Shown here piece by piece: positions 637-64,000 of a stretch of 64,000 nt of DNA. This DNA comes from Ornithinimicrobium sp. F0845. Its GTDB lineage: Bacteria; Actinomycetota; Actinomycetes; Actinomycetales; Dermatophilaceae. The notes below the pieces were generated by a model. That model ran no database searches, was not told the DNA's origin, and saw nothing but the letters and a program-made list of their open reading frames with translations. Each line of letters begins with the position of its first letter. Positions within the stretch are counted from its first letter, which is position 1. The translations under genes were made by a program, and so were the position numbers. Where the stretch lies: NCBI RefSeq assembly GCF_023015765.1, contig NZ_JALKAL010000014.1:1-64000 (forward strand), given 5' to 3'.

Positions 637-2013
637 TCACCCGTCCCGCCAGTCGGGGGGTGACCCGACCTCCAGGTCCGGGTCGTCGGCCGCGAAGGTT
701 CGCACGGGTCCCGGTGCGGTCAGTGGCCCCTCGAACCGGACCGTCACCCGACCCAGGCCGCTCCCCCAGACCCAGCCCGCGCCATACTCCCGGTGGACCA
801 CGTCCGCACCGGGGCGCCAGTTCGTGCCCCTGACGACCTCCGCCGTATGCCGGGGTGCAGGGTCCATCTCCACCGCACCGAGACTGTCGGGCACCTCCGC
901 ACCGCCCGGGGCCACGGCAAAGAGGCCCTCGCCCAGGGCCAGTTCCTCCTGGGCGTGGGTGGTCAGGCCGGAGACGCCCACGCCGAGCAGCCGGATGCCG
1001 GAGGACACGTCGATGGCACCCAGCAGCCGCCGTGCCTGACGCCCGATCACGGCGGGATCACCGGTGGCATAGGGCAGGGTGCCCGAGCGGGTCTGCTGGC
1101 TGAAGTCGTGCTGGCGGACCTTCACGGTCGTGGTCCGGCCGAAGCTGGCGGCCTGCCCGAGTCGGCTGGCCACCCGGGCCACCATCAGGTCCAGCTCGCG
1201 CTCCAGCACGGCCGGGTCCGCGATGTCGGTCTCGAAGGTCTCCTCGACCGAGATGCTCTTGGTCTCGCGCTGGGTCTGCACCGCACGGTCATCCTCCCCC
1301 CGGGCCAGGTGGACCAGGCTCGAGCCGTGCGCCTGCCCGAAGATGGCGACCATGTCCACCTCGCTGACCTGCGCCAGGTCGGCCACGGTCTCCACCCCGA
1401 AGCCGTGCAGCCGCGCCGCCGTCGCGGGTCCGACGCCGGCGATCGCCCGGACCGACATCGGTGCGAGCACCGCCCGCTCGGTGCCCGCCTCGATCAGAGT
1501 CAGCCCAGCCGGTTTGTTCAGCTCGCTGGCGATCTTGGCCATCATCTTGGAGGTCGCGATCCCCACCGACGCGGTCAGCCCCCCGGTCTCGGCCCGGATG
1601 CGCTCCATCAGCTCGTTGCCCAACCGCTGCAGCGCCGGCGCCGAGAAGTCCGCCACGCCACCGCCACGCAGGTCGACATAGGCCTCATCCACCGAGACCT
1701 GCTCCACAACCGGTGACAGGTCCCGCAGGAGGCCCATCACCACCCTCGAGCTGAGCCGGTAGGCGTCGAACCGGCCACCCAGGAAGGCCGTCCCCGCCGG
1801 GCACCGCCGCCTGGCCTCGGCCGTCGGCATGGCCGAGCGCGCGCCATACTGCCGCGCCTCGTAGGACGCCGTGGACACCACGCCCCGCGGACCGACCCCG
1901 CCGACCACGACCGGTTTGCCCCGCAGCGAGGGCTTGTCGCGCTGCTCGACCGCGGCGAAGAAGGCGTCCAGGTCCACGTGCAGGATGCTGGACTCGCGGC
2001 GGACGGCGGGCAT
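637..2013 (-). CDS. dinB: DNA polymerase IV (Y-family translesion polymerase)
   Basis: This is a Y-family translesion DNA polymerase of about 458 residues. The first catalytic carboxylates lie in HVDLDAFFAAVEQ (D14 of the chosen start) and the second pair in SVDEAYVD (D109, E110). A helix-hairpin-helix stretch (IAGVGPATAARL) and a little-finger domain follow. The C-terminal tail (HREYGAGWVWGSGLGRVTVR) matches an extension common in actinobacterial DinB proteins. The start chosen gives MPAVRRESS; an in-frame ATG nine codons upstream is possible. It faces the HipA-like gene across 38 bp. No LexA box (GAAC-N4-GTTC) is visible there. Confidence 0.95.
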   Translation of the reverse strand: MPAVRRESSILHVDLDAFFAAVEQRDKPSLRGKPVVVGGVGPRGVVSTASYEARQYGARSAMPTAEARRRCPAGTAFLGGRFDAYRLSSRVVMGLLRDLSPVVEQVSVDEAYVDLRGGGVADFSAPALQRLGNELMERIRAETGGLTASVGIATSKMMAKIASELNKPAGLTLIEAGTERAVLAPMSVRAIAGVGPATAARLHGFGVETVADLAQVSEVDMVAIFGQAHGSSLVHLARGEDDRAVQTQRETKSISVEETFETDIADPAVLERELDLMVARVASRLGQAASFGRTTTVKVRQHDFSQQTRSGTLPYATGDPAVIGRQARRLLGAIDVSSGIRLLGVGVSGLTTHAQEELALGEGLFAVAPGGAEVPDSLGAVEMDPAPRHTAEVVRGTNWRPGADVVHREYGAGWVWGSGLGRVTVRFEGPLTAPGPVRTFAADDPDLEVGSPPDWRDG

Positions 2014-2039
2014 GGCGCCACTGTGACACACCCCTCGCA

Positions 2040-2045
2040 TAGGCT
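2040..2045 (+). promoter_or_regulatory. -10 element TAGGCT, leaderless start of HipA-like gene
   Basis: TAGGCT lies exactly six bases before the GTG at 2052, so a transcript would start at or next to the start codon. No ribosome-binding site precedes the GTG. No good -35 is seen. Confidence 0.45.
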
Positions 2046-2051: not shown

Positions 2052-2819
2052 GTGCTCGACCACGTCACCGCCGTCCGCTACGTCACCCCGCTCCGCGAGG
2101 GCGGCTCGATGCCCGGCGTCGTCGAGGCGGACGACCTGGGGACGTATGTCGTGAAGTTCCGTGGCGCGGGCCAGGGGCTGAAGGTGCTGGTCACCGAGGT
2201 GATCGTGGGTGAGCTCGCGCGGCGCCTCGGCCTGCCGGTGCCGCGGATGGTGACCATCGACCTGCCGCCGGCGATCGCGCGCTACGAGGCCGACGAGGAG
2301 GTGCAGGACCTGCTCAACGCCTCCCCCGGCACCAACCTGGGGGTCGACCTGCTGCCCGGGTCGCTGGGCTACGACGGCTCCCGCCCGCCGGACCCCGCAC
2401 TGGCCTCCCGGATCCTGTGGCTGGACGCCTTCACCGCCAACGTCGACCGCACCTGGTCCAACCCCAACCTGCTGACCTGGCACCGGGAGACCTGGCTGAT
2501 CGACCACGGGGCCGCGCTCTACTTCCACCACTCGTGGCCCAGCAAGGCGCCCAACCCGGAGCGCTTCGCCCAGCAGGCCTATCGCGCCGACGACCACGTG
2601 CTGGGCGGTGTCGCCGACGACCTGCCCGCCGCGCACGCCGAGCTGTCCGCGCGGGTCACCCCCGACCTGGTCGGCGAGGTGCTCGACCAGGTGCCCGAGG
2701 ACTGGCTCGAGACCACCACTGAGCTCACGGACGCGCAGGCGGTGCGGACGGCATACTGCGAGCACCTGCGGGCCCGCCTGGACAATCCGGGCGCCTGGCT
2801 GCCGGGAGGCGGGTCATGA
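2052..2819 (+). CDS. HipA-like kinase family protein
   Basis: A protein of 255 residues that resembles the catalytic half of HipA Ser/Thr kinases, in the short form without the HipA N-terminal subdomain. Likely kinase landmarks are the ATP-binding lysine in TYVVKFRG (K35), a catalytic-loop-like NVDRTWSNPN (D132) and a metal-binding-like WLIDHGAAL (D151). No HipB-like antitoxin is adjacent. Instead the stop codon overlaps the start of a DUF3037 gene (ATGA), a pairing seen in many bacteria. The substrate is unknown. It need not be a persistence toxin; the conserved pairing with DUF3037 suggests a two-protein unit. Confidence 0.8.
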   Translation: MLDHVTAVRYVTPLREGGSMPGVVEADDLGTYVVKFRGAGQGLKVLVTEVIVGELARRLGLPVPRMVTIDLPPAIARYEADEEVQDLLNASPGTNLGVDLLPGSLGYDGSRPPDPALASRILWLDAFTANVDRTWSNPNLLTWHRETWLIDHGAALYFHHSWPSKAPNPERFAQQAYRADDHVLGGVADDLPAAHAELSARVTPDLVGEVLDQVPEDWLETTTELTDAQAVRTAYCEHLRARLDNPGAWLPGGGS

Positions 2820-3193
2820 GCTACGACTACCAGTACGTCACGCTGCGCCTGGTCCCCCGCGTCGAGCGCGAGGAGTTCATCAACGTCGGGGTCGTGCTCT
2901 ACAGCCAGGAGGCCGACTACCTCGAGGCCGCCTTCGCGCTGCAGGAGGAGCGGGCGCTGGCCCTCGCTCCCGACCTGGACCTGGAGTCCGTGCGTGCCGC
3001 GCTCGAGGCAGTATGCCGGGTGGCCGCCGGCGAGCACTCGCCCGCCACCCCGCGGCTGGACCGGTTGGGGCCGCGCTTCGGCTGGCTGAGCGCGCCACGC
3101 AGCACGATCGTGCAGCCCGGCCCGGTGCACGGCGGCACGACCGAGGACCCGGCTGCCACGCTCGCCCACCTGGTGCGCATCCTGGTGACATGA
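2816..3193 (+). CDS. DUF3037 family protein, partner of the HipA-like kinase
   Basis: A small soluble protein of 125 residues beginning MSYDYQYVTLRLVPRVEREE, with the EEFINVGVVLY motif typical of DUF3037. Its biochemical role is unknown. It overlaps the kinase gene by four bases (ATGA at 2816) and the YbaK gene in the same way (ATGA at 3190), so all three are probably made from one transcript in fixed proportion. It may act as adaptor or regulator of the kinase; that is inference from the gene pairing only. Confidence 0.8.
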   Translation: MSYDYQYVTLRLVPRVEREEFINVGVVLYSQEADYLEAAFALQEERALALAPDLDLESVRAALEAVCRVAAGEHSPATPRLDRLGPRFGWLSAPRSTIVQPGPVHGGTTEDPAATLAHLVRILVT

Positions 3194-3717
3194 CTGCACT
3201 GACCTGGCACCCCTTCGCCGAGCGCCCCGACCTGGTGGCCGATCCCGTGCGGGAGGCCCTGGCCGGCTCACCGCTGGCCGACGTCGTGGAGGTCACCGAG
3301 ATCGACCCGGAGATCGCCGACACCCAGGCCCTGGTGGACGCCACCGACGTGCTGCTGGAGGAGTGCGCCAACTGCATCGTGGTGCTCGGGCGCCGGGGCG
3401 AGACCGAGCGGGTCGCCGCCGGGCTGGTGCTGGCCACCACCCGCGCCGACGTCAACACCACCATCCGCAAGGCCCTGGACGTGCGCAAGGCCAGCTTCAT
3501 GCCGATGGACCGGGCGGTCGCCGACACGGCGATGGAGTATGGCGGGATCACTCCCGTCGGTCTGCCCACCGGGTGGCCGGTGCTCGTCGATGCCCGCGTC
3601 ACGGCCTCCGAACGGGTCGTCATCGGCTCCGGTCTGCGCCGCTCCAAGCTGCGCCTGCCCGGGGCCCTGGTCGCGGACCTACCGCGCGTCGACGTCGTCG
3701 AGGGCCTGGCCCGCTGA
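3190..3717 (+). CDS. YbaK/EbsC-type aminoacyl-tRNA deacylase
   Basis: A protein of 175 residues with the YbaK/aminoacyl-tRNA editing domain over most of its length. NCIVVLGRRGETERVAAGLV and the lysine-bearing DVRKASFMPMD segment are the recognisable parts. Such proteins hydrolyse wrongly charged tRNAs (for example Cys- or Ala-tRNAPro) in trans. Its ATG overlaps the DUF3037 stop codon, so it belongs to the HipA-like operon. Whether editing and the kinase are functionally linked is unknown. Confidence 0.8.
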   Translation: MTALTWHPFAERPDLVADPVREALAGSPLADVVEVTEIDPEIADTQALVDATDVLLEECANCIVVLGRRGETERVAAGLVLATTRADVNTTIRKALDVRKASFMPMDRAVADTAMEYGGITPVGLPTGWPVLVDARVTASERVVIGSGLRRSKLRLPGALVADLPRVDVVEGLAR

Positions 3718-3774: not shown

Positions 3775-4290
3775 TCAGTCGCCCGAGGCTGTTCGAGCCA
3801 CCGGTGGTTGAGCGGACCACGGGAAGACGATCCACTCGTCCGTGTGCTTCCACACGAAGTCGGGCTCCACGATCGTGGCCGACTTGGCATAGAGGACGGC
3901 GCTGCGGGTGTCCGCGCCATGTGCCCGGAGCAGGTCGAGGACGAGGGCCAGCGTCCTCCCGGAGTCCGCGACATCGTCCACGACGAGCAGGCGACGCCCC
4001 CTGATCGACTCTGTGTCCAGCAGTGGTGCCAGGAGGACGGGGTCGGGCAGCGTCTCGTGCACGTCGGTGTAGAACTCGACATTGATGGCGTCGGACAACT
4101 TGATCCCGAGGGCGTAGGCCAGGGCCCCGCCGGGCAGCAACCCACCGCGCGCGACGGCGATGATGATCTCCGGCTCAAAGTCCGCGTCCACCACGGTCTG
4201 GGCCAGTTCGCGACTGGCCTGCCCGAACCCGTCCCAGGTCAGGATCTCCTTGTCGGTCAGGTCACTGGAGTCTGCGTGGTATGCCGTCAC
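3775..4290 (-). CDS. Purine-type phosphoribosyltransferase
   Basis: A type I phosphoribosyltransferase of 171 residues. The PRPP-binding motif is LLVVDDVADSGRTL, with a conserved AVARGGLLPGG loop near residue 46. It most resembles small xanthine/guanine or hypoxanthine salvage enzymes, which join a purine base to PRPP. The exact base cannot be told from sequence. The start is a GTG at 4290 (MTAYHADSS). It lies downstream of the LysR gene on the same strand, 33 bp away. Confidence 0.8.
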   Translation of the reverse strand: MTAYHADSSDLTDKEILTWDGFGQASRELAQTVVDADFEPEIIIAVARGGLLPGGALAYALGIKLSDAINVEFYTDVHETLPDPVLLAPLLDTESIRGRRLLVVDDVADSGRTLALVLDLLRAHGADTRSAVLYAKSATIVEPDFVWKHTDEWIVFPWSAQPPVARTASGD

Positions 4291-5893: not shown

Positions 5894-6724
5894 GGACGTC
5901 TGCAGTGCCCAGAACGCCACGGCGCTGGCGGCCGCCACGTTGAGGGAGTCCACCCCACCTGCCATCGGGATCCGCACGGCCAGGTCGGCCTCGGCGATGG
6001 TCCGGTCCCCCAGCCCATCTCCCTCGGTGCCGAGGACCAGCGCGAGCCGGTCCGGCGGGTCCTCGGCGAGCTGCTGCAAGGCGAGGCCATCCTCCCGGAG
6101 CGCGAACGCCGCGACCATGAAGCCCGCCTCACGCAGCATCTGTATGCCGTGCGGCCAGGGATCGATCCGCGTCCAGGGCACCTGGAAGACGGTGCCCATC
6201 GACACCCGGACCGACCGGCGATAGAGCGGGTCCGCGCAGCGCGGAGTCACCAGGACGGCGTCCACGCCGAGCGCGGCCGCCGAGCGGAAGACCGCGCCGA
6301 CGTTCGTGTGGTCGACGATGTCCTCCAGCACCGCGACCCGCCGGGCCCCCTCGATCACGTCCGGCACCGTGGGCAGGACCGGCCGGTGCATCGCGGCGAT
6401 CGCGCCGCGGTGCAGGTGGAACCCGGTCATCTCCTGGGCGACCGCGGGTTCCATCACATAGACCGGTGCCCCCTCGGACACCGCCCGCTCCACCAGGTCG
6501 GCCAGGTCCACGACCCACCGCGGGGTGAGCAGCAGCGACCGTAGGCGGTGGCCGGCGTCCAGGGCCCGACCGATGACCTTGGCCGACTCGGCCAGATAGA
6601 GGCCCTGCTCGGGTTCGAGGAGGCGCCGCAACGCCACGTCGGTGAGGCCGACGTAGTCACGCACGCGCTCGTCATCCGGACGATCGATCCAGGTGACGCC
6701 GGCGGGCAACTGGCGCTCCGTCAT
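5879..6724 (-). CDS. TrmH/SpoU-family RNA 2'-O-methyltransferase
   Basis: A SPOUT methyltransferase of 281 residues. The family motifs are in order: NVGAVFRSAAALG (motif 1), LVLGTEGDGL (motif 2) and IPMAGGVDSLNVAAASAV (motif 3, forming the SAM-binding knot). The N-terminal part resembles a SpoU substrate-binding domain. It methylates a ribose in rRNA or tRNA; the site is unknown. Its ATG overlaps the stop codon of the TauE gene (ATGA), making it the last gene of a three-gene operon. Confidence 0.9.
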   Translation of the reverse strand: MTERQLPAGVTWIDRPDDERVRDYVGLTDVALRRLLEPEQGLYLAESAKVIGRALDAGHRLRSLLLTPRWVVDLADLVERAVSEGAPVYVMEPAVAQEMTGFHLHRGAIAAMHRPVLPTVPDVIEGARRVAVLEDIVDHTNVGAVFRSAAALGVDAVLVTPRCADPLYRRSVRVSMGTVFQVPWTRIDPWPHGIQMLREAGFMVAAFALREDGLALQQLAEDPPDRLALVLGTEGDGLGDRTIAEADLAVRIPMAGGVDSLNVAAASAVAFWALQTSSPED

Positions 6725-7482
6725 ACGAGCAGCACCACGATGGCGACCACACCGATGACCACGATGGTCAGCCGCAGCAACCAGGGCGGCATGCTGCGCC
6801 CGATCCGCGCACCCAGCACTCCGCCGATAAAGGAACCGATGGCGATCAGGCCGACGACCGCCCAGTTGACCTGAGCCGGGTCGACGATGAGGAACACCAC
6901 CGCGGCGGTGAAGTTGACGATGAGCCCGAGCACGTTCTTGACCCCGTTGAGCTCCTGCAGCCCGTTGGGCAGCAGGACGCTCATCAGGCCGATCAGCAGC
7001 ACGCCCTGGGCGGCGCCGAAGTAGCCGCCATACATGCCGGCGAGGAGGATGCCGACGATGAGGACGACGAAGCGCGGGCCGGTGACCTGCTCGGCATGCT
7101 GTCTGGCGGCCCAGGCGTTGAGCCGCGGACCGAGGACGACGAGCACCAGTGCCAGCAGGATCAGCACCGGCACGATCGCCTCGAAGGCCTCGGGCGGGAG
7201 CACCAGCAGGAGCAGCGCTCCGATGACCGCGCCGACGAAGGATGCGGGCGCGAGCTGGACCAGGAGGGTCCGGAGCGAGCGGATCTCGTGCCGGTAGCCC
7301 CAGGCTCCCGACGCGCCACCGGCCACGAGCCCGAGGCTGTTGGAGATGTTGGCCGACACGGGCGGGTAGCCGAAGGAGAGCAGCGTCGGGAAGGTCACCA
7401 GCGTCCCGGAGCCCACGACCGTGTTGATGGTGCCGGCCCAGACGCCGGCCAGGATGATGGCCCCGACCTCGAACCAGCTCAT
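6721..7482 (-). CDS. TauE/SafE family membrane transporter
   Basis: A protein of 253 residues with about eight hydrophobic helices. The start (FEVGAIILAGVWAGTINTVV) and the internal MYGGYFGAAQGV repeat are typical of TauE/SafE (DUF81) anion transporters, linked to sulfite, sulfoacetate or other organosulfur compounds. The substrate here is unknown. It is coupled by ATGA overlaps to the ABC ATPase upstream and the methyltransferase downstream. Confidence 0.85.
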   Translation of the reverse strand: MSWFEVGAIILAGVWAGTINTVVGSGTLVTFPTLLSFGYPPVSANISNSLGLVAGGASGAWGYRHEIRSLRTLLVQLAPASFVGAVIGALLLLVLPPEAFEAIVPVLILLALVLVVLGPRLNAWAARQHAEQVTGPRFVVLIVGILLAGMYGGYFGAAQGVLLIGLMSVLLPNGLQELNGVKNVLGLIVNFTAAVVFLIVDPAQVNWAVVGLIAIGSFIGGVLGARIGRSMPPWLLRLTIVVIGVVAIVVLLV

Positions 7483-8261
7483 GCGGCGCGCGCTGACCAG
7501 CGGGCGCCGTGCTTGTCCACCACGAGCGGGATGTCGAAGGTCGTCGACAGGTTTGCTCCCGTCAGCGTCGTCTCGATCGGCCCGGCCGCGACCACCTTGC
7601 CCTCGCGAAGCATCAGGATGTCGGTGAAGCCGGGCGGGATCTCCTCCACGTGGTGGGTCACCAGCACCATCGCCGGCGACTCGAGGTCCTCGGCGAGGAC
7701 CGACAGACGTCCCACGAGGTCCTCGCGACCGCGCAGGTCCAGTCCGGCTGCCGGCTCGTCGAGCAGCATCAGCTCCGGGTCGGTCATCAGCGCGCGGGCG
7801 ATCTGCACGCGCTTGCGCTCCCCCTCGCTCAGGGTGGAGAAGCGACGGGTGGCCAGATGTTCCACCCCCAGCGCCACGAGCAGGTCGGTGGCGCGCCCGG
7901 TGTCCAGCTCGTCATACTCCTCCCGCCACCGCCCGGTGACGCCCCAGGAGGCCGTGACCACGACGTCGCGGACCCGCTCCTCGGGCGGGATCCGCTCGGC
8001 GAGGGCGGCGCTGGACAGACCGATCCGGGGCCGCAGGTCGAAGACGTCGACCGTGCCGAGGACCTCGCCGAGGATGCCGGCCACCCCGGTGGTGGGGTGG
8101 ATCCGCGCGGCAGCGATCTGCAGGAGGGTGGTCTTCCCCGCGCCGTTGGGGCCGATGACGACCCACCGCTCCCCCTCCTCCACGGACCAGTCGATGTCGT
8201 CGAGGAGCACGTTGCCGCCACGGCGCACACCGACACCGGCAAATTCCAGGACATCGCTCAT
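7479..8261 (-). CDS. ABC transporter ATP-binding protein
   Basis: A single nucleotide-binding domain of about 260 residues, starting MSDVLEFAGVGVRRGG. Walker A is IGPNGAGKTTLLQ, the signature is STLSEGERKRVQIARAL, Walker B is LMLLDEPAAGLDLRGRED and the H-loop is LVTHHVEEIPPG. No permease gene of ABC type is adjacent, and the next gene is a TauE/SafE transporter. It resembles YlmA/ModF-like stand-alone ATPases. Its role is unknown. It heads the three-gene coupled operon. Confidence 0.85.
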   Translation of the reverse strand: MSDVLEFAGVGVRRGGNVLLDDIDWSVEEGERWVVIGPNGAGKTTLLQIAAARIHPTTGVAGILGEVLGTVDVFDLRPRIGLSSAALAERIPPEERVRDVVVTASWGVTGRWREEYDELDTGRATDLLVALGVEHLATRRFSTLSEGERKRVQIARALMTDPELMLLDEPAAGLDLRGREDLVGRLSVLAEDLESPAMVLVTHHVEEIPPGFTDILMLREGKVVAAGPIETTLTGANLSTTFDIPLVVDKHGARWSARAA

Positions 8262-8304: not shown

Positions 8305-9054
8305 ATGGCCGACCTTCCCGCGAGCGTGCGCGTGGCCCTGTGGGGCACCGCGGCCCTCGCCGGGCGCCTCGAGCTGGAGGCGGTCGCCCGCCGGGCCATG
8401 CCGGACCTGGACCATGTCGACGGACTGGTGGCGCAGCTGGCGCTGTGGCGAGACCTGGGTGAGCGTCTCATCCTGGTCGCCCTCCCCCGGGCCGGCGATC
8501 TGACGAGTATGCCGCGTGGTCCCGCCGACCTGATCGCCGCGGCGACCGAGTCGGAGGAGTTGGTCTATGTGACCGGGCTCGGTGGTGCCCTGGTGCCGCG
8601 CATCGCCCCGTTCGGTCCCGAGGGTGACCAGGGGTGGGAGGCCCGCTGGACGGCCCACGACGCCGACCCGGTGCCCCAGCACGTCGTCCAGCAGCTGTCC
8701 CTGCCGGACGTCGAGCTCCAGCTGCGTCGCGAGGTCGCCGAGCTCACCGCCGAGCTCGGGCAGGCTCCCGGGCAGCCGCTGAGCGGACACGGTCTCGAGG
8801 CCGCGGCGCGTGACAGCGTCGACGCCCAGTGGGGACTGCCCGAGGGGCTCCCGCCTCGTGCGATCCGGGTGATCGAGCTCGCCGGCGCCATCACGGGTCT
8901 GGCCGGCACGGGCCTGGACCACCGGCTGCACAGTGTCAGCTCCAGCACCACCCTCGGGCGCGAGCAGATCCTGCGTCGGCTCCACGACGCGGGCTCCCGT
9001 GCGCTCGTCGCCGCAACCAACGTCGGCGCCCTCCACCTCGCCGGCTGGCGCTGA
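8305..9054 (+). CDS. Conserved hypothetical protein
   Basis: A soluble protein of 249 residues starting MADLPASVRVALWGTAALAG. I recognise no catalytic motif or membrane segment. The middle section (LQLRREVAELTAELGQ) may be a short helix. It stands alone, with a divergent ABC operon on the left and a repeat-filled gap on the right. Codon use matches its neighbours, so it looks like a resident gene. No function is assigned. Confidence 0.75.
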   Translation: MADLPASVRVALWGTAALAGRLELEAVARRAMPDLDHVDGLVAQLALWRDLGERLILVALPRAGDLTSMPRGPADLIAAATESEELVYVTGLGGALVPRIAPFGPEGDQGWEARWTAHDADPVPQHVVQQLSLPDVELQLRREVAELTAELGQAPGQPLSGHGLEAAARDSVDAQWGLPEGLPPRAIRVIELAGAITGLAGTGLDHRLHSVSSSTTLGREQILRRLHDAGSRALVAATNVGALHLAGWR

Positions 9055-9405: not shown

Positions 9406-10617
9406 TCAGAGCTCGAGGACGTGGCGATAGACCTCGACGGTCCGTTCGGCGATCGTCGTCCAGCTGAAGTGCTCGACCGCCCGGGCTCGTCCGGCCTCGC
9501 CCATCCGGGCCGCCCGCTCCGGGTCGGAGACGGCCTCGTTGATCGTCGCGGCGAGGTCAGCGACGAACTTGTCCGGGTCCGTGGGCGTGCCCGTGCCGTC
9601 GGTCTCCTGCTCGATCGGCACCAACCAGCCCGTCTCACCGTCGACGACGACCTCGGGGATGCCGCCGGTGGCGGTCGCGACGACGGCGGCGCCGCAGGCC
9701 ATGGCCTCCAGGTTGACGATGCCGAGGGGTTCGTAGACCGACGGACAGAGGAAGACCGTCGCGTGGGAGAGGACCGCGATGACCTTGGCCCGGGGCAGCA
9801 TCTCCTCGACCCAGACGACCGTCCCACCGCGGCCCTCGCGCAGCGCGTCGGTCAACCCGATCACCTCGGCCTTGATCTCCTCGGTGTCCGGCGCACCGGC
9901 GAGGAGGACGATCTGCACCTCAGGGGGCAGCTCGGCCAGCGCGCGCAACAGGTAGGGCAGCCCCTTCTGCCGGGTGATCCGACCCACGAACACCACGCTC
10001 GGACGGTCGGGGTCGAGCCCGAGCTCCTCGACGAACGACCGGGCAGCGTCGGAGGTGTCCCGCTGCCACAGCTGGGAGTCGATGCCGTTGTGGACGACGT
10101 GGACCCGCGCGGGGTCGATGGCCGGATAGCTCGCCAGGATGTCCTTGCGCATCCCGGCGGACACCGCGATGACTCCGGCAGCCGCCTCGTAGGCGGTCTT
10201 CTCGGCCCACGAGCTGACCCGGTAGCCACCGCCCAGCTGCTCGGCCTTCCACGGCCGCATCGGCTCCAGGCTGTGAGCAGAGATGACGTGGGGTATGTCG
10301 CCGAGCAGGCTGGCCAGATAGCCACCCAGGTTGGCGTACCAGGTGTGCGAGTGCACAAGATCAGCGCCACCGGCCACCACGTCGGCGGCCATGGCGACAT
10401 CGACGCCCAGTGTCTTGAGCGCGGCGTTCGCGTCCTGCAGGTTCTCCGGCGTCGGGTATCCCGTCGTCCCCGCTTCCTGCACCGGGTCGTCGAACGCTCG
10501 CACCGCCACGGTGAGGTCCGGCAGATCTCGCAGGGCACGCGTCAGCTCCGCTACGTGGACGCCCGCGCCCCCGTAGACGTTGGGGGGGTACTCGCGGGTC
10601 AACAGGTCAAGGCGCAC
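9406..10617 (-). CDS. glgA: Glycosyltransferase of glycogen/alpha-glucan synthesis
   Basis: A GT-B glycosyltransferase of 403 residues. The N-terminal domain begins MRLDLLTREYPPNVYGGAGV, with the KXGG-like VYGGAGVHV loop near residue 14. The C-terminal domain carries the donor-site motif YEPLGIVNLEAMACG. Its length and its divergence from glgC match the actinobacterial GlgA/GlgM type. In mycobacteria that enzyme makes maltose-1-phosphate from ADP-glucose for the GlgE pathway, so this copy may do that rather than extend glycogen directly. The start is a GTG at 10617, with a -10 hexamer six bases upstream. Confidence 0.92.
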   Translation of the reverse strand: MRLDLLTREYPPNVYGGAGVHVAELTRALRDLPDLTVAVRAFDDPVQEAGTTGYPTPENLQDANAALKTLGVDVAMAADVVAGGADLVHSHTWYANLGGYLASLLGDIPHVISAHSLEPMRPWKAEQLGGGYRVSSWAEKTAYEAAAGVIAVSAGMRKDILASYPAIDPARVHVVHNGIDSQLWQRDTSDAARSFVEELGLDPDRPSVVFVGRITRQKGLPYLLRALAELPPEVQIVLLAGAPDTEEIKAEVIGLTDALREGRGGTVVWVEEMLPRAKVIAVLSHATVFLCPSVYEPLGIVNLEAMACGAAVVATATGGIPEVVVDGETGWLVPIEQETDGTGTPTDPDKFVADLAATINEAVSDPERAARMGEAGRARAVEHFSWTTIAERTVEVYRHVLEL

Positions 10618-15816: not shown

Positions 15817-15951
15817 TCCGGGCTGGGCAGGTGCGCCCGCGGCGGGCGTTCATCGACCCGCCGCCGGCAGTATGCCGTAGGCCGGGCGGTCGTCAGGCCT
15901 CGGCTGCCGTGGGGCGCGGAGCCTTGCTCAGTTGTCGTGGGGCCCGGGACC

Positions 15952-52500: not shown

Positions 52501-53706
52501 TCAGTCCTCCAGGACGTCGAGACCAGGGAGGGTCTTGCCCTCCAGGAACTCCAGCGAGGCGCCGCCCCCGGTGGAGATGTGACCGAATTCGTCGTCGCGG
52601 TGACCGAACTGGCGCACGGCGGCCGCGCTGTCGCCACCACCGACGACGGTCAGCGCGTCATGCTCGGCCGTGATGTCGACCAGGGCGCGGGCCACCGCCC
52701 GCGTGCCGTCGGCGTAGGGCGCCATCTCGAAGGCCCCCATGGGGCCGTTCCAGAACACCGTCCTCGCGTCGGCGAGTTTGTCCGCGAACACCCGGGAGGA
52801 GTCCGGGCCGATGTCCAGACCCATCCGGTCGGCGGGGATCTGGTCGGCCGCCACCACCTCGTGGTCGGCGTCGGCGGAGAACTCGGTGGCCACGACGATA
52901 TCCGTCGGCAGCACGATCTCCACCCCGGTGTCCTCGGCCGTCTGCAGGTATCCGCGGACGACGTCGAGCTGGTCCTCCTCGAGCAGGCTCTGGCCCACCT
53001 CGAGGCCCTGGGCCTTCAGGAAGGTGAAGACCATGCCACCGCCGATCAACAGCCGGTCGGCCTTGGCGAGCAGGTTGTCGATGACCCCGAGCTTGTCGCT
53101 GACCTTCGCACCGCCCAGCACCACGGCATACGGCCTCTGCGGGTCCTCGGTCAGGCGGCGCAGGACACCGACCTCGGTCTCGACCAGCCCGCCCGCCGCG
53201 GACGGCAGCAACTGGGTGATGTCGAACACGCTGGCCTGCTCGCGGTGAACGACCCCGAACCCGTCGCTCACGAAGGCGTCGGCCAGGGCGGCCAGCTGCT
53301 CCGCGAACTCTCGGCGCCCGTCAGCGGTCTTGGCCGTCTCCCCCGCGTTGAAGCGCAGGTTCTCCAGCAGCACCACCTGTCCGTCCTCGAGCGCTCCGAC
53401 GGCCTGGCGGGCCGACTCCCCCACCGTGTCGGTGGCGAAGGCGACCGGCTGGCCGAGCAGCTCCTCCAGGCGCGTGGCGACCGGCCGCAGGGAGAACTGC
53501 GGGTCGGGCTCGCCCTTGGGCCGTCCGAGGTGGGCGCAGACGATGACGCGAGCGCCCTGGTCAGCGAGGTCCTTGATGGTCGGCACCGACGCGCGGACGC
53601 GGCCGTCGTCGGTGATCGCCCCGGCGTCGTCCAGCGGGACGTTGAGGTCGCTGCGGACCAGGACCCGGCGACCCCGGAGGTCACCGAGGTCGGCGATGGT
53701 CTTCAT
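52501..53706 (-). CDS. pgk: Phosphoglycerate kinase
   Basis: An enzyme of 401 residues. [20 protein letters not shown] and the substrate arginines in [12 protein letters not shown] mark the N-terminal domain; [19 protein letters not shown] and [15 protein letters not shown] the C-terminal nucleotide domain. It lies 13 bp after gap in the glycolytic operon. Confidence 0.97.
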
Positions 53707-54904: not shown

Positions 54905-55885
54905 TCAGTCCTCGAGCATCTCCGCCGTCAGACCCGCCTCGGTCCCCTCGATGCCGAACTCCTCGGCGCGCTTGTCGGCCATCGCCAGCAGCCGGCGGAT
55001 CCGGCCCGCGACGGCGTCCTTGGTCATCGGCGGGTCAGCCAGCTGACCGAGCTCCTCCAGCGACGCCTGCTTGTGCTCGACGCGCAACAGACCGGCCACG
55101 CGCAGGTGCTCCGGCGCCTGGTCGCCGAGGATCTCCAGGGCCCGCTCGACCCGTGCTCCCGCGGCCACCGCCGCGCGGGCCGACCGCCGCAGGTTGGCGT
55201 CGTCGAAGTTTGCCAGCCGGTTGGCGGTGGCTCGCACCTCGCGGCGCATCCGCCGCTCCTCCCAGGCCAGCACCGCCTCGTGGGCGCCGAGTCTGGTGAG
55301 CATGGCGCCGATGGCGTCACCGTCACGGATCACGACGCGGTCCACGCCGCGGACCTCACGGGCCTTGGCCTGGATCCCCATGCGCCGGCCCGCCCCTACG
55401 AGGGCCAGAGCGGCCTCGGGACCGGGGCAGGTGATCTCCAGCGCCGACGAGCGGCCCGGCTCGGTGATCGACCCGTGGGCCAGGAACGCGCCACGCCAGG
55501 CGGCCTCGGCGTCGCAGACGGACGCACCGACGATGCGCGGGGGCAACCCGCGGACCGGACGGCCCCGGTGGTCGATCAGGCCGGTCTGCCGGGCCAGGGA
55601 CTCCCCGTCGGAGGTGGCGCGCACGACATACCGCGTGCCCTTGCGGAGCCCCCCGGGACCCATGACGACCATCTCGCTCGTGGAGCCGTAGACCTCGGCC
55701 ATGAAGGCCCGCAGCCGACGGGCCACCTGGGCGGTGTCCACCTCGGCCTCGATGACGATGCGTCCGCCGATGATGTGCAGGCCGCCGGCGAAGCGCAGCA
55801 CGGTGGAGACCTCTGCCTTCTTGCAGCAGGTCTTGGTGACGGGAAGCCTGCTCAGCTCGTCCTTCACCCGGGCTGTCATCGCCAT
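54905..55885 (-). CDS. whiA: WhiA regulator, LAGLIDADG-like and HTH
   Basis: A protein of 326 residues. A LAGLIDADG-type domain covers the first two thirds ([37 protein letters not shown]), and a helix-turn-helix ends it ([20 protein letters not shown]). In actinobacteria WhiA controls sporulation or cell division. The ATG at 55885 follows a run of six G (GGGGGG) at four bases; ATG 55879 is an alternative. It belongs to the uvrC-rapZ-yvcK-whiA group. Confidence 0.94.
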
Positions 55886-56885: not shown

Positions 56886-57835
56886 TCGCGCCCCAGGTCG
56901 CGGTGGAAGGTCGTGAGCGCCACTCCCGCGCGCCCCTCGAGCCGCTTGACGAGCTCCTCGGTGACCGCGACGGAGCGGTGCTTGCCGCCCGTGCAGCCGA
57001 TGGCCACGGTCACGTAGCGGCGTCCCTCGGAGAGATAACCGTCCATCGCGATGTTGAGCATCGTGGTCACGGCATCCAGATAGGCGTCCAGCCCGCGCTG
57101 CCCCAGCACGTAGTCCCGCACCTGTTCGTCACGGCCCGTGAACGGCCGCAGCTCGGGTTGCCAGTAGGGGTTGACCAGGAAGCGCAGGTCCAGCACGATG
57201 TCGGCGTCCAGGGGGATGCCGTACTTGAAGCCGAACGACAGCACCGCCATGCGCAGCCGGACGCTGACATCGGTGTTGAGCAGCTCGTCGACGGCCACGC
57301 CCAGCTGGTGCACGTTGTAGCCCGTTGTGTCGATGACGACATCGGCGCCGGAGCGGATGTCGCCCAGCATCCGACGCTCCTTGTGGATGCCGTCGAGGAG
57401 CAGGCCGTCCCCCTGCAGCGGGTGGGGCCGCCGGACGCTCTCGAAACGCCGCACCAGGGCCTCGTCCGTGGCGTCCACGAAGATGGTGCGGGGGTTGAAG
57501 CCGTTGGCTTGCAGCTCCTGGATGCCGTTGCTCAGCTCGGTCGTGAAGTCGCGGCTGCGGACGTCGACGACAGCCGCGAGCCGCTGCGGTCGCACACCAC
57601 CGGAGACGATCTCGACGAGGTCGGCGAGCATCTTGGGCGGGATGTTGTCCACGACATACCAGCCGCGGTCCTCCAGCACGTTGGCCGCTGTCGAGCGTCC
57701 CGCCCCGCTCATCCCCGTGATGAGCACGAACTCACGGTGTTCGCGCCCATCCTGGGGCTCTGGCACGGACGTGTCCGACACCTGTGTCGCGGCCGTGCTC
57801 CCGGACCCGACTGCGTCCGCCCCTAGCTCAGTCAT
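56882..57835 (-). CDS. rapZ: RapZ nucleotide-binding protein
   Basis: A protein of 317 residues with an N-terminal P-loop domain (LITGMSGAGRSTAANVLED) and a C-terminal domain (FGFKYGIPLDADIVLDLRFL; TVAIGCTGGKHRSVAVTEEL). In E. coli RapZ links cell-wall sugar supply to small RNA decay; the role in actinobacteria is unclear. It is 11 bp after uvrC. Confidence 0.94.
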   Translation of the reverse strand: MTELGADAVGSGSTAATQVSDTSVPEPQDGREHREFVLITGMSGAGRSTAANVLEDRGWYVVDNIPPKMLADLVEIVSGGVRPQRLAAVVDVRSRDFTTELSNGIQELQANGFNPRTIFVDATDEALVRRFESVRRPHPLQGDGLLLDGIHKERRMLGDIRSGADVVIDTTGYNVHQLGVAVDELLNTDVSVRLRMAVLSFGFKYGIPLDADIVLDLRFLVNPYWQPELRPFTGRDEQVRDYVLGQRGLDAYLDAVTTMLNIAMDGYLSEGRRYVTVAIGCTGGKHRSVAVTEELVKRLEGRAGVALTTFHRDLGRE

Positions 57836-57846: not shown

Positions 57847-59865
57847 TCAGTCCATCACTTCACCGGTAGCCAGGTTAACCCGCGGCGCCGCCGTGGTCGC
57901 CTCACCAGTGAGTTTCTCGTGGACCAGCGCCGCCAGCGCGGGGCCGATGCCGGGGACTCCGGCCAGCTCCTCCACCGAGGCCGCCTCGATCTTGCGCACG
58001 GAGCCGAACGCGCGCAGCAGGGCCTTCTGACGTGCGGGACCCAGCCCGGGGATGCCGTCCAGGCGGCTGGAGGTCATCGACTTGGACCGGCGCTGCCGGT
58101 GGAAGGTGTTGGCGAAGCGGTGCGCCTCGTCCCGGACCCGCTGCAGCAGGTAGAGCCCCTCGCTGGTCCGGGGCAGGATGACCGGGAACTCCTGCCCCGG
58201 CACCCACACCTCCTCTAGTCGCTTGGCCAGACCGATGACCGTCACGTCGTTGACCCCGACCTCGCTGAGGGCGGCGGCCGCGGCGTTGACCTGGGGCAGC
58301 CCGCCGTCGACGACCACCAGGTTGGGCGGGTAGGCGAACCGGGCCGGTCGTCCCTCCGGCGTGACGGGCTGACCACCCGCGGCGACCGGGCGGCCGTCTG
58401 AGGTGACCGGCTGACCGGCTGCCGGGACCGGTTGACCGGCTGCCGTGAGCGGCGCCGGGTCCTCCGCCGCGGCCGGGGCGTTGAGCAGGTGCCGGAAGCG
58501 CCGGGTCAGCACCTCGTGCATGGCGGCGGTGTCGTCGGCGGTGCCGTGCCGGACGATGAAACGGCGGTACTCGCTCTTGCGCGGGAGTCCGTCCTCGAAG
58601 ACCACCATCGAGCCCACCACGTCCGTGCCCTGCACGTGGCTGATGTCGAAGGACTCGATGCGCAGCGGCGCCTCGTCGAGCTCGAGCGCGTCCTGCAGCT
58701 CCTGGAGCGCCTGGCTGCGTGCGGTGAGGTCGCCGGACCGGGCCACCTTGTGCCGCGCCAGCGACTGGGTGGCGTTGCGGGCCACGGTCTCCAGCAGCGC
58801 CCGCTTGTCACCGCGCTGCGGCACCCGGATGCGCACCCTCGCGCCGCGCAGGGTGCTGAGCCACTCCTCCAGGTTGCCCCGGCCGGTGGGCTCGACCGGC
58901 ACGAGCACCTCGCGCGGCACCGCCTCCGGTGACTCCCCGCCATACACCTGCTGCAACAGGTGCTCGACGATCTCGGCGAGGTCCTCGGCCCCCTTCTCAC
59001 TGACCCACCCTCGCTGCCCGCGCACCCGGCCGCCGCGCACGTGGAACACCTGGAAGGCGACCTCGAGCTCGTCGTCGGCCAGGGCGAAGACGTCGGCATC
59101 GGTCGCGTCCGGCAGCACGACGGCTGACTTCTCCAGCGCCCGCTGGAGCGCCACGATGTCGTCGCGGAGCCGGGCGGCCGTCTCGAAGTCGAGCTCCGCG
59201 CTGGCGGCGCGCATCCGCTGTTCAAGGTCCTTGACGAAGCGGCCGGTGTTGCCGGTCATGAAGTCGCAGAAGTCCTCGGCGATCGCGCGGTGCTCCTCGG
59301 GGGTGACCCGACCGACGCACGGCGCCGAGCACTTGTCGATGTAGCCCAGCAGGCACGGTCGGCCGACCTGGTTGGCGCGCTTGAACACGCCCTTGCTGCA
59401 GGTGCGCACCGGAAACACCCGCAGCAGCTGGTCCAGGGTCTCCCGGATCGCCCACGCGTGGGCGTAGGGCCCGAAGTAGCGGGTGCCGGACTTCTTGGCG
59501 CCGCGCATGACCTGGGCCCGGGGGAACTCCTCCCCCATCGTGACCGCGAGATAGGGGTAGGACTTGTCGTCGCGGTACTTGACGTTGAACCGGGGGTCGT
59601 ACTCCTTGATCCAGGCGTACTCCAGCTGGAGTGCCTCGACCTCGTTGCGCACGACCGTCCACTCCACCGAGGCCCCGGTCTGCACCATGGTGCGGGTCCG
59701 CGGGTGGAGCGCCGAGAGATCCTGGAAGTACGAGCTCAGCCGAGAGCGCAGCGAGACCGCCTTGCCCACGTAGATGACCCGTCCGTGCTGGTCACGGAAC
59801 CGGTAGACACCGGGCTCGGTCGGGATCTCCCCCGGACGGGGGCGGTAGCTGGAGGGGTCTGCCAT
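57847..59865 (-). CDS. uvrC: Excinuclease ABC subunit C
   Basis: A protein of 672 residues that cuts damaged DNA on both sides of a lesion. It has an N-terminal GIY-YIG domain ([18 protein letters not shown]), a UVR segment near residue 215-245, an RNase H-like endonuclease domain ([16 protein letters not shown]) and a terminal helix-hairpin-helix pair ([17 protein letters not shown]). Between the UVR part and the endonuclease domain, about residues 472-507, five 7-residue repeats of the form xxxGQPV/GRPV are inserted. It lies 3 bp after uvrA. Confidence 0.96.
58345..58450 (-). repeat. 21-bp (7-codon) tandem repeat inside uvrC
   Basis: In the UvrC frame the array reads [35 protein letters not shown], five units of seven codons. 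It lies between structured domains and the frame is kept, so it probably forms a flexible linker of variable length. Confidence 0.8.
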
Positions 59866-59868: not shown

Positions 59869-62814
59869 TCAGGCGGACCGCCCACGGGGTCCGGAGCGGG
59901 CAGCCGCGGGGCGACGGCCGCGCTCGAGCAGCGGGGCCAGGAAGCGCCCGGTGTGGCTGTCCGGGTCGGCCGCCACGGCCTCGGGCGTGCCCTCGGCGAC
60001 GACCGTGCCACCGCCCCGGCCGCCCTCGGGCCCTAGGTCGACAACCCAGTCGGCGCTCTTGATGACGTCCAGGTTGTGCTCGATCACCAGGACGGTGTTG
60101 CCCTTGTCGACCAGGCCCTGCAGGACCCCCAACAGTTTGCGGATGTCCTCGAAGTGCAGCCCCGTCGTCGGCTCGTCCAGGACGTAGACCGTGCGGCCCG
60201 TCGACCGCTTCTGCAGCTCGGCCGCCAGCTTGACCCGTTGGGCCTCGCCGCCGGAGAGGGTCGGGGCGGGCTGCCCCAGGCGGACGTAGCCGAGCCCGAC
60301 CTCGACCAGGGTCGTCAGGTGCCGGGCGATCGCGGGGACCGCCGCGAAGAACCCGGCGGCCTCCTCGATGGGCATGTCGAGGACCTCGGAGATGGTCCGG
60401 CCCTTGAAGTGCACCTCCAGGGTCTCCCGGTTGTAGCGCGCACCGTGACAGACCTCGCACGGGACGTAGACGTCGGGCAGGAAGTTCATCTCGATCTTCA
60501 GGGTGCCGTCACCGGCGCACGCCTCGCAGCGCCCGCCCTTGACGTTGAAGGAGAAGCGCCCGGGCAGGTAGCCCCGGACCTTGGCCTCGGTGGTCTCGGC
60601 GAAGAGCTTGCGGATGTGGTCGAAGACGCCGGTGTAGGTCGCCGGGTTGCTCCGGGGGGTGCGGCCGATGGGGCCCTGGTCGACGTGCACCACCTTGTCG
60701 AGTGCGCCGAGCCCCTCCACCCGCTTGTGCCGCCCCGGGACCTGCCGGGCACCGTTGAGCTGGTTGGCCAGCACCTTGTAGAGGATGTCGTTGACCAGGG
60801 TCGACTTGCCCGACCCGGACACGCCGGTGATCGCGACCAGGTTGCCCAGCGGGAAGGAGACGTCCACACCCTGGAGGTTGTGCTCCCGCGCGCCGACGAC
60901 CTTCAGCGCCCGCCCGTCCTGACCGCGTCGCCGGGCCGGCACGACGATCTCCCGCCGACCGGACAGGTAGGCGCCGGTCACCGAGGACGTGTGCGTCAGC
61001 AGGTCCGCCACCGAGCCGGAGTGCACCACCTGTCCACCGTGCTCGCCCGCGCCGGGGCCGATGTCGACCACCCAGTCGGCAGCCTCGATCGTGTCCTCGT
61101 CGTGCTCCACGACGATCAGGGTGTTGCCCAGGTCACGCAACCGGGTGAGGGTCTCGATGAGCCGGTGGTTGTCCCGCTGGTGCAGACCGATCGATGGCTC
61201 GTCGAGGACGTAGAGGACACCGACCAGGCCGGAGCCGATCTGGGTGGCCAGCCGGATGCGCTGAGCCTCGCCACCGGACAGCGTGGCCGCAGGCCGGTCC
61301 AGGGAGATGTAGTCCAGACCGACGTCCAGCAGGAACCCGAGGCGGGACTGCACCTCCACCATGACCCGGTCGGCGATCTGGGCCTCGCGCTCGCTGAAGT
61401 CGATGCCCCGGAGGAAGTCGGCGCACTGGTCGATCGGCAGCGCGCACACCTCGGAGATGCTGCGGCCACCGACGGTCACGGCCAGGATCTCCGGCTTGAG
61501 CCGGCTGCCCTGGCAGACGGGGCAGGGCACCTCGCGCATGTAGGACTCGTAGCGCTCGCGGCTGGTGTCCGAGTCGGTCTCCGCGTGCTTGCGCTTGACA
61601 TAGGGGATGACACCCTCGAAGCCGGTGCTGTAGGCCCGCTCGCGACCGAACCGGTTGCGGTAGCGGACGTGCACCTTGTGCTGGTAGCCGTGCAGGATCG
61701 CGTCGCGCGCCCGCCCGGGCAGGGCCCGCCACGGGGTCTCCAGGTCGAACTTGAGGTCCTCCCCCAACCCACCGAGCACCCGCACGAAGAAGTCGCTGAT
61801 CCCGTGGGCGGTCGACCACGGGGTGATCGCGCCCGCCATGATGGTGGCGTCCTCGTCGCGGATGACCAGCTCGGGGTCGACCTCGAGCTCGACGCCGATG
61901 CCGGTGCAGGAGGGGCAGGCACCGAACGGGGAGTTGAAGGAGAACGACCGCGGCTCGATCTCGTCGATCGCCAGAGGGTGGTCGTTGGGGCAGGCCATCC
62001 GCTCGGAGAAGCGGCGCTCCCGCGGGCGGCCCTCCGGGTCGTCGTCGGCGATGTCCACGAACTCGACGACGACCAGGCCACCGGCCAGACCGAGGGCGGT
62101 CTCCACCGAGTCGGTGAGCCGCTGCTTGGCCTTGCCGTCGCCGCCCTTGGCCACCAGCCGGTCCACGACCACCTCGATGGAGTGCTTCTTCTGCTTCTCC
62201 AGCGTCGGCGGCTCGGTCAGCGAGAGCACCTCGCCGTCCACCCGGGCCCGCGAGAAGCCCTTCGTCTGCAGCTCGCTGAACAGATCGACATACTCCCCCT
62301 TGCGGGCCCGCACGACCGGTGCCAGCACCTGGAACCTGGTGCCCTCGGGGAGCTCGAGCAGCCGGTCGACGATCTGCTGCGGGGTCTGCCGGGCGATCGC
62401 CTCGCCACAGACCGGGCAGTGCGGCCGGCCCACCCGGGCATACAGGAGGCGGAGATAGTCATAGACCTCGGTGATCGTGCCCACCGTCGACCGCGGGTTG
62501 CGGTTGGTGGACTTCTGGTCGATCGACACCGCAGGAGACAACCCCTCGATGAAGTCCACGTCGGGCTTGTCCATCTGCCCCAGAAACTGCCGGGCGTAGG
62601 CCGACAGGGACTCGACGTAGCGCCGTTGCCCCTCGGCGAAGATCGTGTCGAACGCCAGGGAGGACTTGCCGGAGCCGCTCAGGCCGGTGAAGACGACGAG
62701 CGAGTCGCGCGGGATGTCGACCGAGAGGTCCTTGAGATTGTGCTCGCGGGCACCCCGCACGACCAACCGGTCGTGGCGGTGCGGGAGGGAGGTGGCGGCA
62801 GTCGTGGATGGCAC
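59869..62814 (-). CDS. uvrA: Excinuclease ABC subunit A
   Basis: A damage-recognition ATPase of about 981 residues with two ABC modules. Walker A motifs are [18 protein letters not shown] and [18 protein letters not shown], the signatures are [17 protein letters not shown] and [17 protein letters not shown], and zinc-finger cysteines are in GRPHCPVCG and [10 protein letters not shown]. The GTG at 62814 is chosen because a TACCAT -10 lies seven bases upstream; two GTG codons further upstream are also in frame. Confidence 0.96.
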
Positions 62815-63093
62815 GCTCTCGATGGTAGATCGTGGCACCGACACTCCCCACCTCGTGCGCCCGGGGTCGACGGGTCCGCGGCGGCACCCGACCCGACCCG
62901 CTAGTGACAAGTTATGCTCAGCCTTGCATAGTTATGTGACGCTCGGCACGGTTCCTTCCGGTCACCGGCGGCAGCGTCTACAGTCGGCGCAGCACTTTTT
63001 CGGCCGGCCGAAGGTGGTGCGCCCCCGGGCCGACGCTGTCCCGGGTTTGAATAAGTACACGCGGCTACAGGCTGCCCGCCCCTGGACGGTGCC
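62815..63093. other. uvrA-gltB divergent intergenic region
   Basis: 279 bp. It is lower in GC around 62905-62940, where TTGCATAGTTATGTG carries GCATA/TATGT half-sites and AGTTATG occurs twice (in CAAGTTATGCTC and CATAGTTATGTG). This may be an operator for gltB nitrogen or arginine control, but I cannot assign it to ArgR or GlnR. Near 63048 GGTTTGAATAAGTACACG is AT-rich and may belong to a promoter. Confidence 0.35.
62822..62827 (-). promoter_or_regulatory. -10 element TACCAT, leaderless start of uvrA
   Basis: On the minus strand TACCAT ends seven bases before the GTG at 62814. No LexA-type box is visible. Confidence 0.4.
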
Positions 63094-64000
63094 ATGAACC
63101 AGAGCCCCCATCTCGCGACCCCGACCTCAGCTGCGCCCGCAGGACGCCCCGTTCCGGCGTCCCCCAGCGGGTCCGCGTCGCCGGCCGGTCGCCCTCCCGG
63201 GCTCTACGACGGCGACCACGAGCATGACGCCTGCGGTGTGGCCTTCGTGGCTACCCTCCGCGGCTATCCCGGGCACGACATCGTCGCCCACGCCCTGACC
63301 GCCCTGCACAACCTGGACCACCGGGGCGCGGTCGGCGCCGAGCCGGACTCCGGCGACGGCGCGGGGATCCTCACACAGGTGCCGGACCGGTTCTTGCGGG
63401 AGGTGCTCGACGTCGACCTCCCCGACCCTGGGCAGTATGCCGTGGGGCTGCTCTTCCTGCCCCCCGAGGACCCCGGTGGGGCCGCCTCCGACGTCGAGTC
63501 GATCCTCCACGGCTCCGGCCTCGACGTGCTGGCCTGGCGCGACGTGCCCACCCGCCCTGACCTCGTCGGCCCGATGGCCCGTGCAGCCATGCCGGTGATG
63601 CGCCAGGTCGTGGTCACCTCGCGGACGGGAGACGCGGGGCTGGACCTGGAGCGTCGGGTCTGGCTGGCCCGCAAGACCATCGAGCGGCAGACGTCGGTCT
63701 ACCCCGTGTCGCTCTCCGGACGGACCCTCGGCTACAAGGGGATGCTCACCACCACCCAGCTCGCCGAGTTCTTCCCGGACCTCACCGACGAGCGCTACGA
63801 GTCCGCCCTCGCGGTGGTCCACTCCCGGTTCTCGACCAACACCTTCCCCTCCTGGCCGCTGGCCCATCCCTACCGGCTGGTCGCGCACAACGGCGAGATC
63901 AACACCGTGCGCGGCAACCGCAACTGGATGAACGCCCGGGAGAGCAGCCTGTCGGCCCCGCTCTTCCCCGGAGACCTGGCGGCAACGCTGCCGATCTGCA
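63094..64000 (+). CDS. gltB: Glutamate synthase large subunit (5' part)
   Basis: The first 302 codons of the NADPH-type glutamate synthase alpha chain, which makes glutamate from glutamine and 2-oxoglutarate. The class II glutamine amidotransferase domain is recognised by [19 protein letters not shown], where C47 becomes the N-terminal nucleophile after a 46-residue propeptide is removed, and by [20 protein letters not shown] and [18 protein letters not shown]. The gene runs off the right edge. Confidence 0.95.

Follow-up and report, generated by a model that had tools for sequence, protein, structure and literature searches.

Sites of the word in the window and its excess in the genome

The first 64,000 nucleotides of contig NZ_JALKAL010000014.1 of Ornithinimicrobium sp. 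F0845 (this whole 64-kb stretch is called the window) contain many copies of the short gapped word GTATGNCG, termed here the T form. Its partner with C in place of T, GTACGNCG, is termed the C form. The original prediction, made from the sequence of the window, had counted 41 copies of the T form; by pattern matching we found 42.

The variant GTATGCCG is located on the plus strand at 845..852, 3011..3018, 4279..4286, 6142..6149, 8507..8514, 15870..15877, 18561..18568, 22669..22676, 30371..30378, 41996..42003, 44087..44094, and 63435..63442, and on the minus strand at 2749..2756, 21413..21420, 25129..25136, 28992..28999, 33309..33316, 36766..36773, 40393..40400, 41473..41480, and 53124..53131. 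The sites 15870..15877 and 41996..42003 both lie between called genes, as had been stated before. GTATGGCG is found at 3537..3544 and 32197..32204 (plus strand) and at 780..787, 1842..1849, 7026..7033, and 58938..58945 (minus strand). The sites of GTATGTCG are 2144..2151, 10293..10300, 12695..12702, 28140..28147, and 48165..48172 on the plus strand and 15132..15139, 20068..20075, 43244..43251, 55624..55631, 57652..57659, and 62286..62293 on the minus strand. GTATGACG occurs at 34041..34048 (plus) and at 6719..6726, 7910..7917, and 12536..12543 (minus). The C form is present only twice, as GTACGGCG on the minus strand at 28921..28928 and 30043..30050. The earlier count of two and the first of these positions were right, whereas the second site had been placed at 30045.

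Dinucleotide-preserving shuffles of the window contained a mean of 3.1 and at most 9 matches of GTATGNCG, and a third-order Markov model of the window alone predicted 1.2 copies of GTATGCCG, of which 21 were seen. The pentamer GTATG occurs 49 times and is followed by NCG in 42 cases, one more in each case than had been reported. The whole F0845 genome (99.9% complete) contains 2867 copies of GTATGNCG in 4,198,449 bases, 1437 forward and 1430 reverse, compared with 862 matches of the same pattern read backwards, which served as genome-wide control. In this genome the reversed pattern understates the excess because it overlaps the word's own left flank preference.

The influence of codon usage was assessed with synonymous shuffles, genes being called with a simple codon-usage script. 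In a sample of 464 kb with 313 called genes, 248 copies were observed and 47.9 expected from 60 shuffles (5.2-fold, z 28.8). All 7-mers and all words of the type 5+N+2 were then scored in 695 kb of coding sequence. GTATGNCG had the highest z of all 5+N+2 words (444 vs. 78, z 36), the partly overlapping word AGTATNCC exceeded it in ratio, and the top 7-mers were parts of GTATGNCG. It also had the highest z among these words in the genome G065 (269 vs. 40, z 32). GTATG without NCG after it reached only 0.28–0.52 of the synonymous expectation; it is therefore the whole gapped word that is kept and not GTATG.

Frame, density, and spacing were counted in 864 kb, i.e., 20% of the F0845 genome. All six gene-relative frames are used, in agreement with the original prediction, but unevenly: a single sense frame, G-TAT-GNC-G with a TAT codon for tyrosine, holds 232 of the 460 copies within called genes. 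The density is equal within called genes (0.652 per kb, 461 sites) and outside of them (0.663 per kb, 104 sites), 8 of the 573 sites crossing a gene border and being left out of both counts. Overall there is about one copy per 1.5 kb in the genome, half of them per strand. GTATGNCG is a genome-wide signal at the DNA level.

As to other features of the window, a search against Rfam yielded one tRNA and nothing else. The region 11991–18306 contains a Peptidase S51 (cyanophycinase-like) gene and a cyanophycin-synthetase-like gene and, on the opposite strand, a gene for a second Mur-ligase protein with TPR repeats; it is possibly a locus for a cyanophycin-type polymer. The pair TCTATCTG/CAGATAGA has five copies in the window, with at most 0.3 predicted by the third-order model (0.3 being the floor used). 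In the pooled loci L014, L015, L021, and L022 the words GACTGTAC, TGTACGGA, GTACGGAA, and ACGGAAGT were found 12–13 times each and expected at most once. They appear to be parts of a single repeat of about 14 bp, which may form an array in one locus.

The C form and the turnover of sites

The two matches of GTACGNCG in the window compare with a shuffle mean of 8.5. The reported deficit is real as a count, but it is about fourfold and not sevenfold, as followed from the earlier estimate of 15. In the 464-kb sample the synonymous ratio was 0.26 for GTACGNCG, 0.33 for GTAC, 0.24 for GTACC, 0.28 for GTACA, and 0.25 for GTACG overall. GTAC is depleted in general, so that the scarcity of GTACGNCG is no peculiarity of the word. 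The avoidance of GTAC was 0.32 in the genomes G047 and G070; GTACT is least avoided (0.71 in F0845). In the same shuffles the surplus of the T form amounts to about 200 copies, twice the shortfall of about 93 for the C form. In the relative G072 the T form is 7.4-fold over expectation, and GTACGNCG is near normal (0.84).

We compared the sites of the window with the homologous positions in five relatives, four of them 78% identical and one, G104, 73% identical. From these 210 comparisons 134 were ungapped, 2 gapped, and 74 unaligned. At the ungapped positions the word was retained in 24 cases, differed at one fixed position in 32, and at two or more in 78. GTACGNCG made up 16 of the 32 single-difference states and 16 of the 110 non-identical states. 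In the reverse direction, 130 sites of the relatives were followed into F0845, with 68 aligned, 53 unaligned, and 9 gapped; F0845 retains the word at 23 of the aligned positions and is without it at 45, of which one has GTACGNCG. Four control words retained all fixed bases in 56 of 192 cases. It follows from the homologous states that sites are gained and lost by ordinary point mutation at all positions.

These data bear on two explanations. The one preferred in the original prediction was that GTACGNCG is methylated and mutates from C to T. The scarcity of GTACGNCG in the window and its rank as the commonest single-difference state would fit. However, GTAC is avoided generally, the deficit of the C form is too small, homologous sites in the relatives rarely carry it, and independent mutations are not expected to produce the site exclusion reported below. 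In addition, the C5-cytosine methyltransferase family PF00145 had no match in the 99.9% complete F0845 genome, and it is absent from 24 of the 55 word-rich genomes (classes are given below), or from 16 of 44 if those at least 95% complete are taken. Neither the specific loss of the C form nor the C5-methyltransferase that would characterize a decayed 5-methylcytosine site was thus found, and deamination at GTACGNCG was rejected; in its simple form this explanation is refuted here and very improbable. The second explanation is an artefact of codons, codon pairs, or composition, the outcome under which the prediction would have fallen. That half of the coding copies share one frame would be in line with it. 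Nevertheless, the Markov model in the window and the synonymous shuffles in 464 and 695 kb left the excess in place, the word uses all frames and is as dense outside genes, and its excess is absent from relatives of like G+C such as Janibacter. On account of the shuffles we rejected the codon artefact, to which we attach next to no probability. The other reading of the original prediction, in which selection acts on the DNA itself and maintains the word for binding or uptake, was supported, so that the earlier interpretation as a whole holds in part.

Range, dialects, and spacing by orientation

The ratio of the word to the reversed pattern was used to class 119 genomes of the family: 55 are word-rich (ratio at least 3.5) and 52 word-poor (below 2.5). 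The 12 genomes in between, among them F0845 with a ratio of 3.3 against its flank-inflated control, were excluded from the class counts; the genome G049 was classed as word-rich on 46 copies only. Within 24 named genomes tested, GTATGNCG was found 1715 times in Ornithinimicrobium pekingense, 1933 in Serinicoccus, 2068 in Intrasporangium, 2140 in Terrabacter, 2696 in Pedococcus, 871 in Phycicoccus, and 341 in Humibacillus. Low counts were obtained for Janibacter (50 and 60), Arsenicicoccus (82), Arthrobacter (99), and Nocardioides (123), and Kribbella had 580 copies vs. 333 of the reversed pattern. Among 297 genomes of the order, 24 of them from the family of F0845, none outside the family had more than about 500 copies, and none there with more than 100 copies exceeded the reversed pattern more than about twofold. 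Within the order the excess of the T form is thus confined to this one family, which, judged by the genome names, is the Dermatophilaceae of GTDB. Within the single genus g26 the genomes G069, G025, and G096 have 68, 1230, and 3862 copies. The Phycicoccus genome G129 has 871 copies of GTATGNCG vs. 174 reversed and 2588 of GTACGNCG vs. 881 reversed, perhaps a mixed dialect.

The flanks and the N vary between lineages. In F0845 the word is preferentially flanked by G at position –3 and C or G at –2, with A preferred before the core and T after it; in G072 the core is followed by CG. The N position is C in 96% of 372 sites of G065 and T in 8% for G070. The word GTAGGNCG is about twofold over expectation in G000 (1.97), G047 (2.05), and G065 (1.99) but not in G070 (1.01) or G072 (1.22); it is possibly a tolerated variant.

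Ranked by z, the gapped words of Nocardioides and Kribbella were headed by GTACGNCG (480 vs. 161, z 22, and 399 vs. 102, z 26). Whole genomes contained 9376 copies vs. 1027 reversed (a Nocardioides), 9423 vs. 1062 (Pimelobacter), and 25,193 vs. 1688 (Kribbella steppae). It is the dominant iterated word in the Nocardioides and Kribbella samples (G131, G140, L188–L207), at about 1.8 and 2.8 copies per kb genome-wide. Several further families are rich in GTAYGNCG relative to the reversed pattern among 158 genomes of the class, a ratio uncorrected for codon use. Ten stretches were taken from ten such high-ratio genomes: GTACGNCG was 2.7- to 7.5-fold over shuffles in eight and 1.7-fold in G506, and one had no bases read. 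Neither word was enriched in samples (34–215 kb coding or less) of Streptomycetaceae, Arthrobacter, Cellulosimicrobium/Sanguibacter, and Janibacter/Arsenicicoccus. The T and C forms look like dialects of one word, GTAYGNCG, for which common descent seems plausible.

The strands are balanced. The 55 word-rich genomes have 76,875 forward and 77,172 reverse copies, and plus and minus counts are equal along the sampled parts of the G065 chromosome, whose origin was not located. Per 20 kb the balance in G065 is even closer than binomial (25 stretches, chi-square 8.5, lower P 0.0009), and on contig C1 of F0845 it is only marginally too even (lower P 0.057). A replication-polar signal such as the FtsK-orienting polar sequences (KOPS) was rejected on the balance in G065 and the 55 genomes.

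Two copies that point the same way tend not to lie within about 1 kb of each other, whereas opposite copies show no such avoidance. In the 864 kb of F0845, pairs within 1 kb numbered 91 for the same and 206 for opposite orientation, with about 190 expected of either kind, and neighbours alternate in orientation in 353 of 568 cases. The respective pairs were 62 and 152 in G065 and 150 and 198 in G070, the densest genome, where the range is closer to 400 bp. Eleven sets pooled gave 395 same and 731 opposite pairs with alternation in 971 of 1541 (P about 1e-24, neighbours being taken as independent in the spacing tests); without F0845 and G065 there remained 242 and 373 pairs with alternation in 392 of 622. 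Taken alone, neither G047 (184 kb; 13 same, 18 opposite) nor the small set from O. pekingense (3 and 1) showed exclusion. Control words alternate at 0.475–0.48 on average in F0845 and G065; the value of the word was reached by 7 of 400 in F0845 and by 3 of 400 in G065, and in G070, where it is not extreme, by 5 of the 25 available. For the C form, alternation after removal of self-overlapping pairs was weak (268 of 486 in Nocardioides; 109 of 182 in eight loci of 5–20 kb). Independent mutation is not expected to give a spacing such as that of the T form. Given the same-orientation exclusion, the strongest clue obtained, maintenance and reading of the word appear to concern each strand separately, suggesting that copies count per strand and reach about 1 kb.

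Possible functions and comparison with known systems

We consider it possible, with a probability of roughly 0.42, that GTATGNCG works like a self-DNA uptake sequence, kept by drive and read strand-specifically, as the T dialect of GTA(T/C)GNCG. DNA of the own kind bearing the word would preferentially be taken up or imported in natural transformation, and by recombination of such fragments copies that arise by point mutation would accumulate (molecular drive). If one strand at a time were recognized or imported, a stretch that already has one copy would gain nothing from another in the same orientation, which would be lost, and a copy in the opposite orientation would serve the other strand.

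We prefer the uptake reading because of the dialects, the turnover of sites, a word-poor metal-resistance stretch, and the ComEA-like and ComEC genes. The latter are a full-length ComEC gene in F0845 and an adjoining ComEA-like gene with SLBB and helix-hairpin-helix domains. In the locus L187 a tandem array of about five 25-bp units (14717–14841) lies at the 5' end of a comEA-like open reading frame (14777–15883). The metal-resistance stretch L129 (G065:C1:200001-220000) has 2 copies in 20 kb, the lowest of 25 stretches with a mean of 14.9. Its genes encode a P-type ATPase, two cation-efflux proteins, a multicopper oxidase, and a metal-sensing repressor. Type IVa pili as the reader were rejected since PilM is present in 6 of 119 genomes, and ComEC and TadE were rejected as discriminating genes.

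Several observations weigh against an uptake function. ComEC and TadE are each present in 115 of the 119 family genomes, word-poor ones included, and therefore do not explain the range of the word; in word-poor genomes a putative ComEA was recognized, at the level of a protein cluster. The neighbourhood of comEC in 22 loci (12 word-rich and 10 word-poor, none from G014) held no gene cluster that word-rich loci commonly share and word-poor ones lack, the most one-sided being 3 to 0. The depletion from new DNA is seen in one stretch, which was selected for having the lowest count among 25 and whose recent arrival is presumed. Spacing is even overall in F0845 (coefficient of variation 0.83, 0 of 400 controls lower) but not in G065 (1.00, 110 of 400 lower). 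The C form of Kribbella has no exclusion (alternation 281 of 557 after removal of self-overlapping pairs; 196 same and 138 opposite pairs within 250 bp), and its 2.8 copies per kb are above the approximately one per kb of the uptake signal sequence (USS). We know of no uptake sequence in Gram-positive bacteria. Among the matches listed, the literature on uptake sequences and competence in Actinobacteria described no such word. Finally, the same-orientation exclusion does not fit reading regardless of orientation, which PMC1939737 gives for known uptake sequences.

The main rival is a mark for repair or replication: modification, nicking, or binding of the asymmetric word on a single strand would tell a repair system which strand is old. 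We regard this as the less probable of the two, though still a serious candidate. Each strand would need its own copy within about 1 kb of a mismatch, which directly predicts the observed geometry, the same orientation being spaced out and the other independent. Actinobacteria are not known to have MutS/MutL, which also speaks for such a mark, but NucS-type repair occurs in groups without the word, such as Streptomyces, too. A similar logic is proposed for the cyanobacterial highly iterated palindrome HIP1 by Elhai 2015 (PMC4390886). On the other hand, the lack of PF00145 in F0845 counts against a mark of this kind, and a rough search for amino-methyltransferase motifs, covering 864 kb, gave five weak matches, none convincing by eye. 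The orientation-specific spacing would likewise suit a Chi-like signal for a nuclease-helicase of the AdnAB or AddAB type, for which one orientation-dependent copy per strand per kb would be enough. Known Chi words, however, favour the leading strand, and the strands of GTATGNCG are balanced. RecC is absent in 40 of the 55 word-rich genomes and present in 30 of the 52 word-poor ones, so that RecBCD is not meant and a RecBCD-Chi system was rejected as unlikely; a Chi-like signal altogether appears improbable to us. We also doubt that the word is a plain binding site for an abundant nucleoid or chromosome-architecture protein. Its genome-wide presence on both strands and in coding and non-coding DNA would agree with such a site, but avoidance restricted to the same orientation is not predicted by it, nor are fast turnover and dialects.

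Tentatively, and with less than even odds, GTAYGNCG may be a self-DNA signal of wide actinobacterial range. Dermatophilaceae would use its T dialect and Nocardioides, Kribbella, and further families its C dialect; reading would be on single strands, each needing about one copy per kb. In open papers we found none on GTATGNCG, overrepresented GTACGNCG, their complements, or GTAYGNCG, which is no proof of absence; a term search for 'uptake sequence' gave 0 hits in a Micrococcus luteus paper (PMC4322843). To our knowledge, no other genome signal of this kind resolves the two strands, and Gram-positive bacteria have no other known word for self-recognition or strand marking; GTAYGNCG would be the first in both respects. 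Since thousands of copies are present in organisms for which our literature searches found no such signal, an unrecognized process shapes these genomes. Should the word serve in uptake, natural transformation would be at work in a large Gram-positive group, and laboratory strains could be given new DNA by means of it. As a strand mark it would bear on how bacteria without MutS/MutL distinguish old from new strands.

Of the known systems, Chi (RecBCD/AddAB) resembles the word in that orientation-dependent reading would fit its spacing. It differs in strand bias, the strands of GTATGNCG being balanced in one complete chromosome sampled (origin not located) and in 55 genomes, and in the distribution of RecC, which is present in only 15 of the 55 carriers and commoner in word-poor genomes. 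Like HIP1 and the alternate palindromes of cyanobacteria, GTATGNCG is a single word repeated on a massive scale, about once per kb, and gives way to other words in some lineages. PMC4390886 proposes that mismatch repair is guided by methylated HIP1 sites spaced about 1000 nt apart and that the alternate words go with other methyltransferases. The cyanobacterial words are palindromes tied to methyltransferases, whereas the T form is asymmetric and F0845 is without a C5-cytosine methyltransferase; self-overlap, as in CGNCGTACGNCG, is possible for the C form only. This self-overlapping form is enriched 5.5- to 7.3-fold (G131, G140, L188–L207; L228–L235).

The word also resembles the DNA uptake sequence (DUS) of Neisseriaceae and the USS of Pasteurellaceae. 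For the uptake sequences of Haemophilus or Neisseria, PMC1939737 and PMC7811141 report copies about 1 kb apart on average, without orientation bias, that arise by point mutation and are scarce in new DNA. PMC12616744 deals with a receptor candidate of Pasteurellaceae; for GTATGNCG no receptor was found. Further differences are the actinobacterial host, the exclusion in the same orientation, and a density that is not higher outside genes. Because it does not appear to be read regardless of orientation, we do not file the word as a member of DUS/USS but only as working like one. As in these systems, however, GTATGNCG is a short, non-palindromic, over-represented word found about once per kb in coding and non-coding DNA on both strands without strand bias; it arises by point mutation and not by insertion (134 of 210 comparisons ungapped, 2 gapped), forms lineage dialects, and may, to judge from one acquired-looking stretch, be scarce in new DNA, in a host whose genome encodes competence machinery.

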